This document shows positions 10,402 to 33,452 of a stretch of 33,452 nt of DNA, piece by piece; positions within the stretch are counted from its first letter, which is position 1, and each line of letters starts with the position of its first letter. Made by a program: the position numbers and the translations under genes. This DNA comes from a virus. The notes under the pieces are model-generated. The model saw only the letters and a list, made by a program, of their open reading frames with translations, was not told where the DNA came from and did not search any database. The stretch spans positions 1-33,452 of IMG/VR virus record IMGVR_UViG_3300000318_000089; one strand, given 5' to 3'.

Positions 10402-10872
10402 ATGGGAAATTTAAAAATAGTAACTGGTGATGGTACAATTGCCAACGTAAATAAAAATCTTTATCAAATTTTAGATAAGCTTCCTACTCCAAATTCAAAG
10501 TTTGAATTGAGTGATGATCAAAAATATTGGTATAAATATTTTGGTCAGCAGTTAGTTGATACTAAAAAATTAACCAAGCCTGATCTTATTCATTTACATC
10601 AATTAGCAACTTCTGTTGATTATTACATTCAGGCTGAAAATAAAATTCGTGAAAAAGGTTTTAATGGTGGTTTGATTCAAACTTTTAAAGGTGGAGCAAC
10701 AAATGTTTCAGGTTATGTTACTATTCGAGAAAAAATGATTAAAGAAATTAATGAGCTTTCAAAACATTTTGGGTTTTCATTTAAAGATCGTAGTAAGTTA
10801 ATTGAACCTAAAGAAGTTGATAGCAACCAACCTGATTTATTTACTGCTTTTTTAAATGCTAATCATGGGTAA
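10402..10872 (+). CDS. terS: Small terminase subunit, P27 family
   Basis: The product (156 residues) should recognise phage DNA and load the large terminase. The pattern is that of P27-family small subunits: a polar N-terminus (DKLPTPNSKFELSDDQKYWY), KKLTKPDLIHLHQLATSVDY (about 56-75), a central helix (YIQAENKIREKGF), QTFKGGATNVSGYVTIREKM (about 93-112), and a C-terminal LSKHFGFSFKDRSKL. The gene follows the HNH nuclease but is separated from the large terminase by about 2.8 kb of cassette-like DNA, which is unusual. Its stop codon overlaps the left arm of the first attC-like repeat. Confidence 0.85.
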   Translation: MGNLKIVTGDGTIANVNKNLYQILDKLPTPNSKFELSDDQKYWYKYFGQQLVDTKKLTKPDLIHLHQLATSVDYYIQAENKIREKGFNGGLIQTFKGGATNVSGYVTIREKMIKEINELSKHFGFSFKDRSKLIEPKEVDSNQPDLFTAFLNANHG

Positions 10873-10998
10873 CGGAAAAGCTAACCGATGTTCAGGAAAA
10901 GTAAGAACTGAACATTCGAGTAATAACAAATCTTACAGATACAAAACGATAATTAAATTAAACCTAAAGCCTGAATAGCGGTTAACGTATGTTATCAC
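10867..10998 (+). repeat. attC-like imperfect palindrome A
   Basis: The left arm (10870-10896, beginning at the stop codon of terS) reads TAAC..GCTAACCG..TTCAGG, and the right arm (10970-10994) is its near complement, CCTGAATAGCGGTTAAC through GTTA. It ends in GTTATCAC (10991-10998). A long imperfect palindrome with inner and outer paired blocks and an unpaired centre of about 73 bases is the plan of an integron attC site. From 10991 it shares 21 identical bases with site B. Confidence 0.5.
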
Positions 10999-11022
10999 TT
11001 CGGCTTTTTAAACGCAAAGAAA

Positions 11023-11256
11023 ATGATACAAGTATTTAAATGTGACCACTGCACTCACTTTACACAAGATGCAGAAGAAATGAGAAATCACGAAATTAAA
11101 TGTTCTTTTAATCCAATAAACAAAAAATGTTACTCTTGTAAACACGCTTGTGAGGATGGATACCCTATTAGCGGACATATGGCAGGTTGTGAAATAGGAC
11201 TAAATGCTTTCGAAGGCGAAAAAAACGGAAATTGTCTTGGTTGGGAAGCTGAGTGA
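11023..11256 (+). CDS. Cys-rich zinc-finger-like cassette protein
   Basis: The protein (77 residues) contains C7-x2-C10-x12-H23-x3-C27, a C2HC-type finger, and then C36-x2-C39-x3-C43 with further cysteines at 56 and 71, so it probably binds two metals. No named family is recognised. The gene occupies a discrete unit. It begins 32 bases after the start of a GTTATCACTTCGGCTT repeat, and its stop codon lies inside an AAGCTGAGTGATAACG repeat. The neighbouring 74-residue gene has the same flanks but no sequence likeness, which looks like exchangeable cassettes. There is no obvious promoter of its own. Confidence 0.65.
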   Translation: MIQVFKCDHCTHFTQDAEEMRNHEIKCSFNPINKKCYSCKHACEDGYPISGHMAGCEIGLNAFEGEKNGNCLGWEAE

Positions 11257-11405
11257 TAACGCCCCGCAGCTAAGCGAGGATTTTCGGATGTGATATGTGT
11301 ATTTATTCCGCTTAACCAAATTTAACCAAGTACAAAAAAATCAACAAATTAATAACCAAATGCCGAAAATCTCGCTTAACTGCTGTTATCACTTCGGCTT
11401 TTTAA
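11246..11405 (+). repeat. attC-like imperfect palindrome B
   Basis: Outer arms AAGCTGAGTGATAAC (11246-11260) and GTTATCACTTCGGCTT (11385-11400) are near complements. Inner arms CTAAGCGAGGATTTTCGG (11270-11287) and CCGAAAATCTCGCTTA (11363-11378) pair with one bulged base. Extra unpaired bases separate outer and inner arms on the left (CGCCCCGCAG) and right (CTGCT). About 75 AT-rich bases form the centre. Core to core (11253-11392) it spans 140 bp, at the top of the known attC size range. Confidence 0.55.
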
Positions 11406-11417
11406 CACCAAATAAAA

Positions 11418-11642
11418 ATGAATAAAGTAATTACAATAGATAATTTTTTAAATGAAAAAGAAAAAGAAAATGAACCTACTAAAGCAAACATTAAAGAATG
11501 GATGATAGAATTTGCAAAACTTCACGTCAATGAAGCTTTAAAACAAGCCAGCGAAAAATTTAGTATTAATCTTTTTGGACCAGATATTAATGAAGTCAGA
11601 AAAGATATTTTAAACGCTTATTCTTTAGATAATGTTGAGTAA
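11418..11642 (+). CDS. Small cassette protein, unknown function
   Basis: The 74-residue protein is charged and probably helical. The N-terminus resembles a short DNA- or partner-binding piece (MNKVITIDNFLNEKEKE), followed by WMIEFAKLHVNEALKQASEK, a long amphipathic helix, and an acidic C-terminus. No cysteines, membrane segments or known motifs are present. It is organised exactly like the preceding gene: start codon 33 bases into the GTTATCACTTCGGCTT repeat and stop codon touching the AAGCTGAGTGATAACG repeat. Function unknown. Confidence 0.6.
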   Translation: MNKVITIDNFLNEKEKENEPTKANIKEWMIEFAKLHVNEALKQASEKFSINLFGPDINEVRKDILNAYSLDNVE

Positions 11643-11694
11643 GCTGAGTGATAACGTTATCTCGCTTGGCGAGGTTTGGGGCAAAAATGCCCGA
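11641..11694 (+). repeat. attC-like half-site C with nested hairpins
   Basis: AAGCTGAGTGATAACG (11641-11656) is identical over 16 bases to the left end of site B. Here it runs straight into TTATC, creating the perfect 12-bp palindrome GATAACGTTATC (11650-11661). Two further hairpins follow: CTCGC-TTG-GCGAG (11661-11673) and GGGC-AAAAAT-GCCC (11679-11692). The right-hand GTTATCACTTCGG half is missing, so this is a partial or collapsed version of site B and may act as a terminator. Confidence 0.5.
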
Positions 11695-11722
11695 TTTTTC
11701 AATTTAAAAACAATATTTCAAT

Positions 11723-12634
11723 ATGGAAAATAATAATCAAATTCAAGACCAATCCCCAAATCTTGCCAAACGAGTGTTAGGCGATGTTGAAATTGCACGT
11801 TTGTTGAAATTAGAAGAAAAAGCAATTAGTTTTATAAAAACAATCAGAAACGCAAAGCCAGATGAATATTTATATGCTGGAAATAGTGGCGGAAAAGATA
11901 GTGCAATTGTAGATTATTTATTGCAATTATCAGGTATTAATTATCATTCGTATCATACAAACACAACACTTGACCCTCCTGGAACAATACCTCATTTAAA
12001 AAAATATTATCCACATACTGAAATTTTAAAACCAAACGAAACATTCTATCAGCTTATCAGAAGAAAGGGATTGCCAACTCGATTGAATAGATATTGTTGC
12101 GAGTATCTAAAAGAATATGGTTCTGTAGCTAAAATGGTTTTTGAGGGCGTAAGAAAAGCGGAAAGTAAAAATAGAGAAGGTAGAGATTATATCCAATGTG
12201 ACAGCAGAAAATGGCAAGAAGGCGCACAACATATTTACATTATTTATGATTGGACAGATATTGATGTTTGGAATTATATTTTTTTTCGGGATATTCAGAT
12301 TGCTCCACATTATGAGTTAGCAAAAAAAGTAGGATTAACAAGATTAGGATGTGTAGGTTGTCCACTTGTGAAACCTGCTACAAGAAAAAAAGAGTTCAAA
12401 ATGTATCCTAAAATTTTAGAAAATATAACAAAAGCTATCGAAGTAGGAATGAGAGAAAATCCACAATGGAAACTTTCAGTTGCTACTAAAGGAAATGCTG
12501 AATTAGCAATACAATGGTGGTTAACAAAAAAAACAATGGCACAATTTTTTAAAGATCAAATAATAACCGGAAGCAAAAAAGATGGTTGGGTATCAGAACC
12601 TAAAATTATTAACCAAACAAATTTGAATTTATGA
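11723..12634 (+). CDS. PAPS-reductase/DndC-like PP-loop protein
   Basis: This 303-residue protein belongs to the PAPS reductase/N-type ATP pyrophosphatase group. The PP-loop SGGKDS is at about 56-61. Paired cysteines RYCCEYLK (about 123-130) and GCVGCP (about 210-215) are arranged like the cysteines that hold a 4Fe-4S cluster in related enzymes. Family members activate a substrate with ATP for sulfur transfer or reduction; phage copies have been linked to sulfur metabolism or nucleic-acid modification. No other sulfation or dnd genes are nearby, so the substrate is unknown. It lies after half-site C, in the terS-terL insertion, and overlaps a 50-residue ORF by ATGA. Confidence 0.8.
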   Translation: MENNNQIQDQSPNLAKRVLGDVEIARLLKLEEKAISFIKTIRNAKPDEYLYAGNSGGKDSAIVDYLLQLSGINYHSYHTNTTLDPPGTIPHLKKYYPHTEILKPNETFYQLIRRKGLPTRLNRYCCEYLKEYGSVAKMVFEGVRKAESKNREGRDYIQCDSRKWQEGAQHIYIIYDWTDIDVWNYIFFRDIQIAPHYELAKKVGLTRLGCVGCPLVKPATRKKEFKMYPKILENITKAIEVGMRENPQWKLSVATKGNAELAIQWWLTKKTMAQFFKDQIITGSKKDGWVSEPKIINQTNLNL

Positions 12635-12783
12635 AAGTAAAAAATCAATGGATTGTTTTTAACAGCAATCAAGACCAATTATTAGTCGAAACAGAAAATG
12701 GTAAGTTTTATTTATACACTTATCACTCAGGATTTCAAGAAGTTTCTTCTGAAAACGCAAATGCTCTTATCAATATCGCCTAA
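12631..12783 (+). CDS. 50-residue protein coupled to the PP-loop gene
   Basis: The ORF starts in ATGA overlapping the stop of the PAPS-reductase-like gene, suggesting translational coupling. The peptide is soluble with a beta-rich first part (NQWIVFNSNQDQLLVETENG, KFYLYTYHSG) and a short helical end (SSENANALINIA). No family recognised. It could be a partner of the PP-loop enzyme. Its stop codon lies in GCCTAACGTCC, which matches the RYYYAAC left core of integron attC sites, but no right-hand partner is seen. Confidence 0.55.
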   Translation: MKVKNQWIVFNSNQDQLLVETENGKFYLYTYHSGFQEVSSENANALINIA

Positions 12784-12836
12784 CGTCCCCATATCCCCAC
12801 CCACCAAAAATCCCAACAAAATAAACACTTAAGCTT

Positions 12837-13640
12837 ATGAATTCCGCAAAGTATACACAAGATTTTGAGAGAGATTTAAGGTTTATACATTTCTCAAAAG
12901 AAACAATTAAAAACTATTGCAGCCAAATAAAACTGTTTTTAGCCTACTTCGCACATAAAGACAGTCCAAAGCATATTTCGGCTGACGAGATAAAGGATTA
13001 TATGTTAAATGCAAAAGAAGTCAACTCACAAAATGCGATGCATTCAGCGATTAAGAAGTTTTATTTGATAACCATAAAGCAAACCCGAAAATTTCATTAT
13101 ATCACCTACGCTAAAAAAGAAAAGAAAATCCCTTTAGTGATCGATGTTGACGAATTGGTTTCAAAAATAGACCAAATCGAAAATAAAAAGCATAAAGCAA
13201 TTATTGCGCTTACTTCGTCGGTTGGTTTGCGAGTTTCCGAAGTTTTAAACCTAAAATTATCCGACATCAATAGTCAGCTAATGCAAATTAATATCCGTGG
13301 AGCTAAAGGAAAAAAAGACCGAATAGTACCGCTTACAGCTCGAACAAGAGAAATAATCCGACTCTATTATATTGAATATCTGCCTAAAGAATACCTTTTT
13401 AACGGTCAAGGCGAAAATTTACAATATTCAGACACCAGCTGCAATGCTATCGTTAAAAAATACATTGGTAAAAAATACCACATGCACACCTTGCGACATT
13501 CGGCAGCTACGGGATTGTACGAGAAAGGAACTGATATTAAACTTATAGGTGATTTACTCGGGCATAGTTCCCGAAAAACTACCGAAATATATACTCATAC
13601 AAGTAGTAAAAAATTACAAACCTTGCAATTCGCAATATAA
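12837..13640 (+). CDS. XerC/D-like tyrosine recombinase
   Basis: This is a second tyrosine recombinase (267 residues), unlike the integrase at the left end. It has an N-terminal SAM-like domain (about 1-80) and a catalytic domain with the full residue set: Arg132 in GLRVSEV, a Lys in AKGKKDR, His217 and Arg220 in HTLRHSAA, His243 in LGHSSRKTTE, and Tyr252 in EIYTH. It is as short as Xer proteins and lacks an obvious extra insert of the integron-integrase type. It lies between the cassette-like region and the large terminase, which it overlaps by one base. Possible roles are dimer resolution, a second integration system, or mobilisation of the adjacent cassettes. Confidence 0.9.
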   Translation: MNSAKYTQDFERDLRFIHFSKETIKNYCSQIKLFLAYFAHKDSPKHISADEIKDYMLNAKEVNSQNAMHSAIKKFYLITIKQTRKFHYITYAKKEKKIPLVIDVDELVSKIDQIENKKHKAIIALTSSVGLRVSEVLNLKLSDINSQLMQINIRGAKGKKDRIVPLTARTREIIRLYYIEYLPKEYLFNGQGENLQYSDTSCNAIVKKYIGKKYHMHTLRHSAATGLYEKGTDIKLIGDLLGHSSRKTTEIYTHTSSKKLQTLQFAI

Positions 13641-32370: not shown

Positions 32371-32898
32371 ATGAACTACGACTATCTAAAAAAAGTAACA
32401 TCGCCACAAATATTAGTTCAAGCTTTAAAATTAGTTGGAACCAAAGAAATAGTTGGTGTCAAAAATTCTGCAACCATAATGGGTTGGGCGAAAGAATTAG
32501 GAATTGAAAAAACATACGTTAATGATGAAATTGCTTGGTGCGGTTTGTTTGTTGCTTATGTAATAAAAAAAGCAGAATTAGAAATGCCTTTTTCAGCAAA
32601 AGAAAGCCTTTGGGCGTTGAATTGGAATAAGTTCGGTACGGCTCAGAAAACTGCAATGCTCGGTGATATTTTGACCTTCAAACGAAATGGAGGTGGTCAT
32701 GTAGGAATCTATGTTGGTGAAGATAATACTTGTTATCATATTCTTGGTGGGAATCAATCTAACATGGTTTGCATCACCCGAATTGAGAAATCCCGTTGTG
32801 CTGGCATCCGAAGAACAAAATGGAAAATAGTAGAACCTGATAGTGTGAAACAAATCTTTGTTAATTCAAATGGGTTTATATCTAAAAATGAAGCGTAA
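32371..32898 (+). CDS. Endolysin, TIGR02594/NlpC-P60-type cysteine peptidase
   Basis: The 175-residue protein should cut peptidoglycan at the end of infection. It has the pattern of the TIGR02594 family: an N-terminal ILVQALKLVGTKEIVGVKNS, Cys57 in EIAWCGLFVAYV, LGDILTFKRNGGGHVGIYVG with His110, and GGNQSNMVCI. Cys and His form the catalytic pair. There is no signal peptide, so it needs the holin for export. The C-terminal 35 residues are outside the usual domain. It overlaps the next gene by one base. Confidence 0.85.
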   Translation: MNYDYLKKVTSPQILVQALKLVGTKEIVGVKNSATIMGWAKELGIEKTYVNDEIAWCGLFVAYVIKKAELEMPFSAKESLWALNWNKFGTAQKTAMLGDILTFKRNGGGHVGIYVGEDNTCYHILGGNQSNMVCITRIEKSRCAGIRRTKWKIVEPDSVKQIFVNSNGFISKNEA

Positions 32899-33452
32899 TG
32901 AGAACAATACTTTATATACTTATGATAATCACTACAATGTGGTTTATTTCCTGCAGTGCTAGACAAGCCGAAAAGAAGCGAAATGAAGAACGTTCCAAAA
33001 TGGAACTAACTGACCAGTCAAAAATTGACAAGTCCGAAAACCAAGAATCAAATGTAAAAAAGTCAGAAGTAAAAACTGAAAATAAACAAGAACAAACTAC
33101 AACGGTAAAAAAAACAGTTGAACCAATTGACCCAACAAAGCCAGCTTCTTATGTTGATGAAAATGGTAATAAAAAAGAATTGAATAATTCTAAGGAAACA
33201 ACTGAAACTACAACCGAAAATAAAAAAACAGATACTAAAGTTAAAACGGATAGTGAAGAAAATACCAAAAATGCTAAAAAAGAATCGGAGGCGAAAGACA
33301 TAAAAGCAAAAGAAGATACTGCTAAAAAAGCCGAAGAAATTCATGTTAAGCGTGATGCCTGGTCTTTGTGGAATTTGGCTTGGTTGTTGGTTCCTGTTGT
33401 GATTTATTTAGGTTGGAAAAATAGATTAAAAATATTTAATAATAAAGTATAG
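32898..33452 (+). CDS. Probable unimolecular spanin (lipoprotein with C-terminal membrane anchor)
   Basis: The 184-residue protein starts with a lipoprotein signal peptide ending in the lipobox FISC, so Cys19 would be lipidated in the outer membrane. A long hydrophilic middle (about 20-150) of Lys, Glu and Thr follows. It ends in one membrane helix (about 155-173: WSLWNLAWLLVPVVIYLGW) with a basic tail. Outer-membrane lipid at one end and inner-membrane helix at the other is the plan of T1 gp11-type u-spanins, which fuse the two membranes after the endolysin has acted. Its place after the endolysin supports this. It ends on the last base of the window. Confidence 0.7.
   Translation: MRTILYILMIITTMWFISCSARQAEKKRNEERSKMELTDQSKIDKSENQESNVKKSEVKTENKQEQTTTVKKTVEPIDPTKPASYVDENGNKKELNNSKETTETTTENKKTDTKVKTDSEENTKNAKKESEAKDIKAKEDTAKKAEEIHVKRDAWSLWNLAWLLVPVVIYLGWKNRLKIFNNKV

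Follow-up and report, generated by a model that had tools for sequence, protein, structure and literature searches.

An integron-like gene cassette array in a phage genome, probably run by the XerA-like recombinase encoded just downstream

This work describes an array of gene cassettes lying between the two terminase genes of a Flavobacterium-type phage, which is very probably a phage-borne, integron-like cassette platform run by the XerA-like tyrosine recombinase encoded just downstream. The window analyzed here is a virus record of 33,452 bases. In the proposed mechanism, the recombinase would insert circular gene units at an attI-like site (AA/C) 50 to 60 bp before its own start codon, and recombination between hairpin sites would remove them. 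Each unit would consist of an attC-like hairpin, one or more genes, and an end arm, with matching arms at both ends; the full stem would form only in the circular unit, and the gene-reading strand is predicted to fold best. Units would be inserted in the orientation of the phage operon, so that read-through from terS towards terL probably drives expression of the captured genes. The most likely use would be as a swap-in store of small host-interaction and counter-defense genes. The features of the array region are as follows.

10402-10872, + strand: terS, terminase small subunit (Pfam Terminase_4, E=1.2e-10)
10870-10994, + strand: attC-like hairpin site 1, TAAC...GTTA (scan extent 10871-10991; structure scan; covariance model R1, E=1.1e-14)
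10873-11259, + strand: mobile unit 1 (mirror model), 387 bp, comprising site 1, gene 1, and end arm
11023-11256, + strand: cassette gene 1, 77 aa, Cys-rich, no family (homologue, 62%, in locus L025)
11246-11260, + strand: unit 1 end arm, AAGCTGAGTGATAAC, complementary to its own start at 10991
11257-11388, + strand: attC-like hairpin site 2 (scan extent 11258-11385; structure scan; R1)
11260-11654, + strand: mobile unit 2 (mirror model), 395 bp, comprising site 2, gene 2, and end arm
11418-11642, + strand: cassette gene 2, 74 aa, no convincing family
11652-11779, + strand: attC-like hairpin site 3 (scan extent 11653-11776; structure scan; R1)
11655-12783, + strand: mobile unit 3, 1,129 bp, comprising site 3, PAPS-reductase-like gene, 50-aa ORF, and end arm
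11723-12634, + strand: PAPS-reductase-like (phrog_424/BrxP-like) gene of unit 3 (Pfam PF01507, E=3.9e-11)
12631-12783, + strand: 50-aa ORF of unit 3
12781-12836, + strand: attI-like recombination site and leader (TAAC followed by GTCCCCATATCCCCACC...)
12837-13640, + strand: XerA-like tyrosine recombinase, 267 aa
13640-15349, + strand: terL, terminase large subunit, a fixed neighbor (Pfam TerL_nuclease and TerL_ATPase)

The original prediction, made from the sequence of the window, placed two small genes in units of 271 and 272 bp, and both are present as described. The identical 21-base starts (GTTATCACTTCGGCTTTTTAA, at 10991 and 11385) and identical 16-base ends (AAGCTGAGTGATAACG, at 11246 and 11641) were likewise confirmed. 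The array does lie between terS and terL, but it holds three units rather than two, the third carrying the PAPS-reductase-like gene, and the near-equal size of the first two is a coincidence (unit median, 361 bp; range, 106 to 1429 bp). The borders of units 1 and 2 were inferred from junctions at AAC in the cultured phages Freya and Danklef, described below. For unit 3, the start GTTAGGCGAT (11776) is matched by its complementary end ATCGCCTAAC, and this end arm directly abuts the recombinase leader. The TAA stop codon of terS sits within the left arm of site 1, and site 3 contains the ATG of the PAPS-reductase-like ORF. A scan using only AACG, paired inner arms, and GTTA as criteria returned exactly three sites in the window, all of them on the + strand, against 0 or 1 in shuffled windows; the - strand gave none. 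Site 1 was absent from the training set of covariance model R1, which included sites 2 and 3. The window had no match in Rfam at the gathering threshold. Searches of Pfam, NCBIfam, PHROGs, and PADLOC returned nothing useful for cassette genes 1 and 2, and the PAPS-reductase-like gene matched phrog_424 (E=4.4e-21) and PADLOC BrxP (E=6e-18). The record opens at the ATG of a phage integrase (1-1233) and closes at the end of an ORF (32898-33452); these start and end points suggest a provirus trimmed at gene borders.

The same architecture recurs widely. An exact search with the 16-base start retrieved 58 viral stretches, most of which share this layout, with different genes following; approximately 10 look like chance matches. 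Across 45 scanned sequences, 185 sites were detected, and shuffles of those sequences gave none. Like attC, each site folds into an imperfect hairpin that has R and L arms and leaves bases unpaired on one side: TAAC/GTTA is followed by an internal loop (5-6 by 1-2 nt), then by an inner helix, and then by another helix that holds a conserved G-T pair. Both sides vary at 17 of the 22 hairpin pairs, a covariation that is partly circular, the sites having been picked by pairing. The outer arms played no part in picking sites, and the matching of arms is therefore an independent test. For this test, the first 5 bases after GTTA were compared with the last 5 before TAAC, with all 5 nt required to be complementary. 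In related loci, 171 of 230 units open with GTTA-N5 and close with the complement of their own start (expectation from shuffling, ∼5), and the two arms of a single hairpin are complementary in only 7 of 356 cases. Since the start arm complements the end arm of its own unit, each junction in the array is a hybrid, and the full stem is available only in the circular unit, as in integrons.

DNA folding showed the asymmetry of the hairpin across loci: of 170 matched units, 167 form their more stable hairpin on the gene-sense strand, and in 168 the circular form is more stable than the in-array form. The matched arms and this asymmetry hint at a circular intermediate and at recombination of a single strand. 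Cassette genes lie on the strand of the site in 216 of 227 cases (216 distinct proteins), and the site contains the start of the longest ORF in 62 of 222 units, as it does for the PAPS-reductase-like gene of the window.

The arrays are linked to the recombinase gene. A search with four relatives yielded 48 viral loci; where a scanned locus includes sufficient upstream DNA, the sites are upstream of the recombinase, and none was found downstream of it in any scanned locus. No array is seen on contigs that break off near the recombinase gene, and these were counted neither way. After the last end arm comes a conserved stretch, in many relatives TAAC joined to TACTATATGTA, approximately 50 bp before the recombinase start codon. 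The leader TAACGTCCC[CA]ATATCCCC is kept between the window and locus L002, in which the last unit differs; a search with the leader pattern TAACGTCCCNATATCCCC retrieved only the contig of L002 and one chance match. A constant leader next to a variable last unit is, on the evidence of sequence, what is expected of an attI site that serves as the cassette entry point next to its integrase. Close relatives of the window keep terS and the recombinase (82-88%) and carry 1 to 6 sites, without any match to the unit genes of the window. Comparison of the terS-to-recombinase interval in related phages thus found other genes there, and not the same two genes throughout, the outcome that would have spoken against exchange. 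These comparisons with related loci bear out the proposal that exchangeable cassettes bearing attC-like sites accompany a tyrosine recombinase.

Two side observations concern individual contigs. Contigs L064, L082, L085, and L100 start exactly at, or no more than 1 base from, the TAAC at the attI-like junction, a pattern that would fit assembly breaking at a point of variation in the population. In L068 (3234-3828), two pieces of terS point in opposite directions and sites run both ways, which reflects either an inversion or an assembly artifact.

In family assignment, sequence, and fold alike, the recombinase comes closest to XerA (Xer structures PDB 5hxy, 4a8e, and 1a0p). It matches NCBIfam family NF040815 (E=9.5e-48), its predicted fold is nearest to XerA 5hxy (E=1.2e-14; model pLDDT 83, pTM 0.59), and alignment with IntI1 shows that the catalytic residues R132, K157, H217, R220, H243, and Y252 are kept. 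In integron integrases, the IntI-specific segment contacts folded attC, and the domain is held to be necessary for hairpin recombination. With IntI1 of R100 as the reference, a segment of approximately 29 residues is missing from the aligned recombinases of the window, Bacteroidota chromosomes, Freya, and Leef, and the match to IntI4 in the PDB splits into two pieces around the gap. It is this extra domain that sets IntI apart (PMC9024848, PMC9668308). Its absence counts against the proposed mechanism.

Gain and loss of exact units can be followed in cultured phages. Polaribacter phages Freya_1 to Freya_10 come from one host strain; 7 of them were compared over the 1.7 to 6.7 kb before the recombinase, after the ends of the circular records had been joined. 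Inserts distinguish Freya_1 from Freya_2 (+842 bp), Freya_2 from Freya_5 (+902 bp), Freya_5 from Freya_6 (+472 bp), and Freya_9 from Freya_10 (+307 bp), and the 902-bp unit is absent inside Freya_8 relative to Freya_10. Further blocks of 2,891 and 3,198 bp are inserted, like single units, where AAC meets ACCCCTATAAC. Nested pairs show no SNP over the compared 1.7 to 6.7 kb. Junction overlaps measure 3 to 11 nt, and the minimum is AAC, which places the crossover at the GTT/AAC triplet as far as sequence comparison can do so. Danklef_1, a phage of another species from another host strain, shares with Freya_10 a 1,169-bp unit (99.6%) that has unrelated flanks and is cut at AACG at both ends. In the Freya and the Freya/Danklef comparisons alike, the unit order is hairpin, gene(s), end arm. 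The recombinases of Freya and the window share only 34% identity, so this strongest junction evidence applies to the window by homology of the system. A transposon- or IS-like unit was considered and rejected: the Pfam families of 100 cassette proteins include no transposase, and in place of a target-site duplication the junctions share only those few nucleotides containing AAC.

Homologous cassettes in different loci are few: only 6 pairs passed, of which L006/L089 supports a site that travels with its gene. The other homologous pairs looked at have the same gene with different sites. With so few supporting pairs, the point that sites travel with genes is carried by the Freya/Danklef comparison. 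In L048 (1868-2498) and L004 (340-1023), each compared with L068 (- strand), gene bodies are ∼90-93% identical, with different hairpin sites and different matched N5 arms; movement of units alone does not explain such near-identical gene bodies with other sites and arms.

Danklef phages offer a natural mutant, their recombinase lacking the first 117 codons (L165 6470-7010); the array regions of Danklef_1 and Danklef_5, the only two compared, are identical over 9,569 bp. The paper describing the isolates reports Freya genomes of 44.0 to 48.9 kb, and the words integron and cassette are absent from its text (PMC8776804). Two other cultured phages also show sites: in Leef_1 (L150 27733-28136) a site and a unit end precede a XerA-like integrase, and in Ingeline_1 (L132 4130-4318) one site lies further upstream of the phage's own integrase.

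The array system also appears in bacterial chromosomes and is, from the genomes searched, not confined to phages. The covariance model of the sites matched 35 of 41 Flavobacterium genomes at an E value of ≤1e-6, some with dozens of matches (any prophages included). At 1e-8, 17 of 41 Bacteroidota genomes had matches and 24 had none. Of 121 Flavobacterium genomes, 57 encode a relative of the recombinase, mostly a longer protein. Five stretches around this gene were read; in these, the sites are found past its 3' end on the other strand, separated from it by TAACTTGTATATA or a variant. These chromosomal cousins carry a similar attI, TAAC joined to TTGTATATA, adjoining the recombinase. Long Flavobacterium arrays of the same sites were seen in L170 to L175 and in genomes G039 and G018, on contigs that often end in or near them; here the recombinase is often 350-370 aa and convergent to the array. 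In small negative controls, the site model gave no hit in Polaribacter phage P12002L, plasmid R100, or ten unrelated viral loci. It also missed the Danklef sites at an E value of ≤1 and is therefore insensitive to marine variants.

Of 100 distinct cassette proteins, at least 74 have no Pfam family at an E value of ≤0.001. Named cargo comprises six N6/N4 and two C5 DNA methylases, one Dam, two Mom, two proteins of the Acb2/Tad1 type, a GNAT, and a RusA. The Acb2/Tad1 hairpin domain, a phage counter-defense, was seen in the records of L057 and L008. Counter-defense as the use of the cargo is a guess, because a minority of the cargo supports it.

In its logic, the platform closely follows the integron. 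Both have a tyrosine recombinase adjoining attI, with insertion beside the recombinase; arrays of gene units with imperfect hairpin sites and a GTT/AAC crossover; and matched arms within the unit, one strand of which folds better. The differences lie in the enzyme, the arms, and the orientation. Here, the enzyme is XerA-like and has no IntI-specific domain; the arms read GTTA-N6-GT instead of GTTRRRY, with spacers of 5-6 and 1-2 nt (the R' consensus G/TTRRRY fits 14 of 279 right arms and the R'' consensus RYYYAAC fits 13 of 279); the hairpin precedes the gene, whereas attC lies 3' of the cassette gene in integrons; and the recombinase is downstream of the array, codirectional in phages or convergent in chromosomes. 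When an integron is drawn with attI to the left, the better-folding strand here corresponds to its bottom strand, and only the gene is turned round. The predicted integron plan therefore stands with regard to the attC-like hairpin and its AAC/GTT core but is reversed in that the hairpin lies 5' of the gene. In the reverse integron of Treponema (PMC3607928, PMC4909258), intI is upstream and transcribed towards attI, whereas in the present system the recombinase follows the array, the genes of which are oriented towards attI. XerA, XerC, and XerD are closest in sequence and fold. Xer enzymes resolve dif-type double-stranded sites, whereas the gene described here is tied to hairpin arrays. Given the missing IntI-specific domain, the failure of GTTRRRY, and the hairpin preceding the gene, the system works like an integron and is not a member as defined.

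These same features bear on whether the phage has captured a true integron, with an IntI-family integrase and standard attC cassettes, as reported in other phages. The shared attI/attC/cassette logic, the GTT/AAC crossover, the hairpin with its asymmetric spacer, and even the NCBIfam family name (site-specific tyrosine recombinase/integron integrase) would fit that account; the absence of the IntI1 segment from every aligned recombinase, the poor fit of the arms to GTTRRRY, and genes that follow their hairpin and point towards attI make it very unlikely. Standard attC and IntI models had already detected integrons and attC clusters, likewise cassette-like arrays, in phage genomes (Qi et al. 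2023, PMC9892861). The original prediction that no phage-borne cassette system had been described for this type of phage needs correcting in that IntI-type examples in phages had been reported; P12002L, the one flavophage of that set tested here, gave no hit with the site model, and a literature search of open-access papers (no preprints and few subscription papers) found no description of the present system.

It is also improbable, though less so, that the array is real and recombined by a host enzyme (XerC/D or a chromosomal XerA-like protein), the phage gene serving, for example, genome circularization. The array lies directly upstream of the phage recombinase in scanned viral loci, which argues against such a division of labor, as do the identical arrays of the two recombinase-broken Danklef isolates, a small sample; on the other hand, Flavobacterium hosts own a related recombinase and arrays. 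Least credible of all, and almost certainly wrong, is the account in which conserved intergenic hairpins (REP-like, terminator, or regulatory) coincide with gene turnover by ordinary homologous recombination. The hairpins are intergenic and could act as short homologies, and some gene bodies do occur with other sites, but the Freya junctions, with overlaps down to 3 nt and without SNPs, already contradict it. A unit common to two species with AAC cut at both ends, arms that match across the gene and not across the hairpin, and sites confined to one side of the recombinase also count against it. Plain REP or BIME repeats, the other outcome that would have undone the original prediction, were ruled out: the palindromes are tied to gene units and a recombinase and are not scattered. 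The original observation was right, and it was understated.

Beyond the phage platform itself, we consider it fairly likely that a second integron lineage is common to Bacteroidota phages and chromosomes, in which XerA-like recombinases act on single-strand hairpins without the IntI-specific domain and with the gene turned round, and through which phages exchange counter-defense genes within one bloom. The site model and the recombinase alignment point to undescribed arrays in many Flavobacterium genomes. Cultured phages with intact (Freya) and broken (Danklef) recombinases exist, making the question directly testable. If the interpretation holds, a XerA-like enzyme acting on hairpins would test the purpose of the extra domain of IntI and the origin of integrons, and phages would own a dedicated gene-exchange machine that explains part of the turnover of small genes in near-identical phages.
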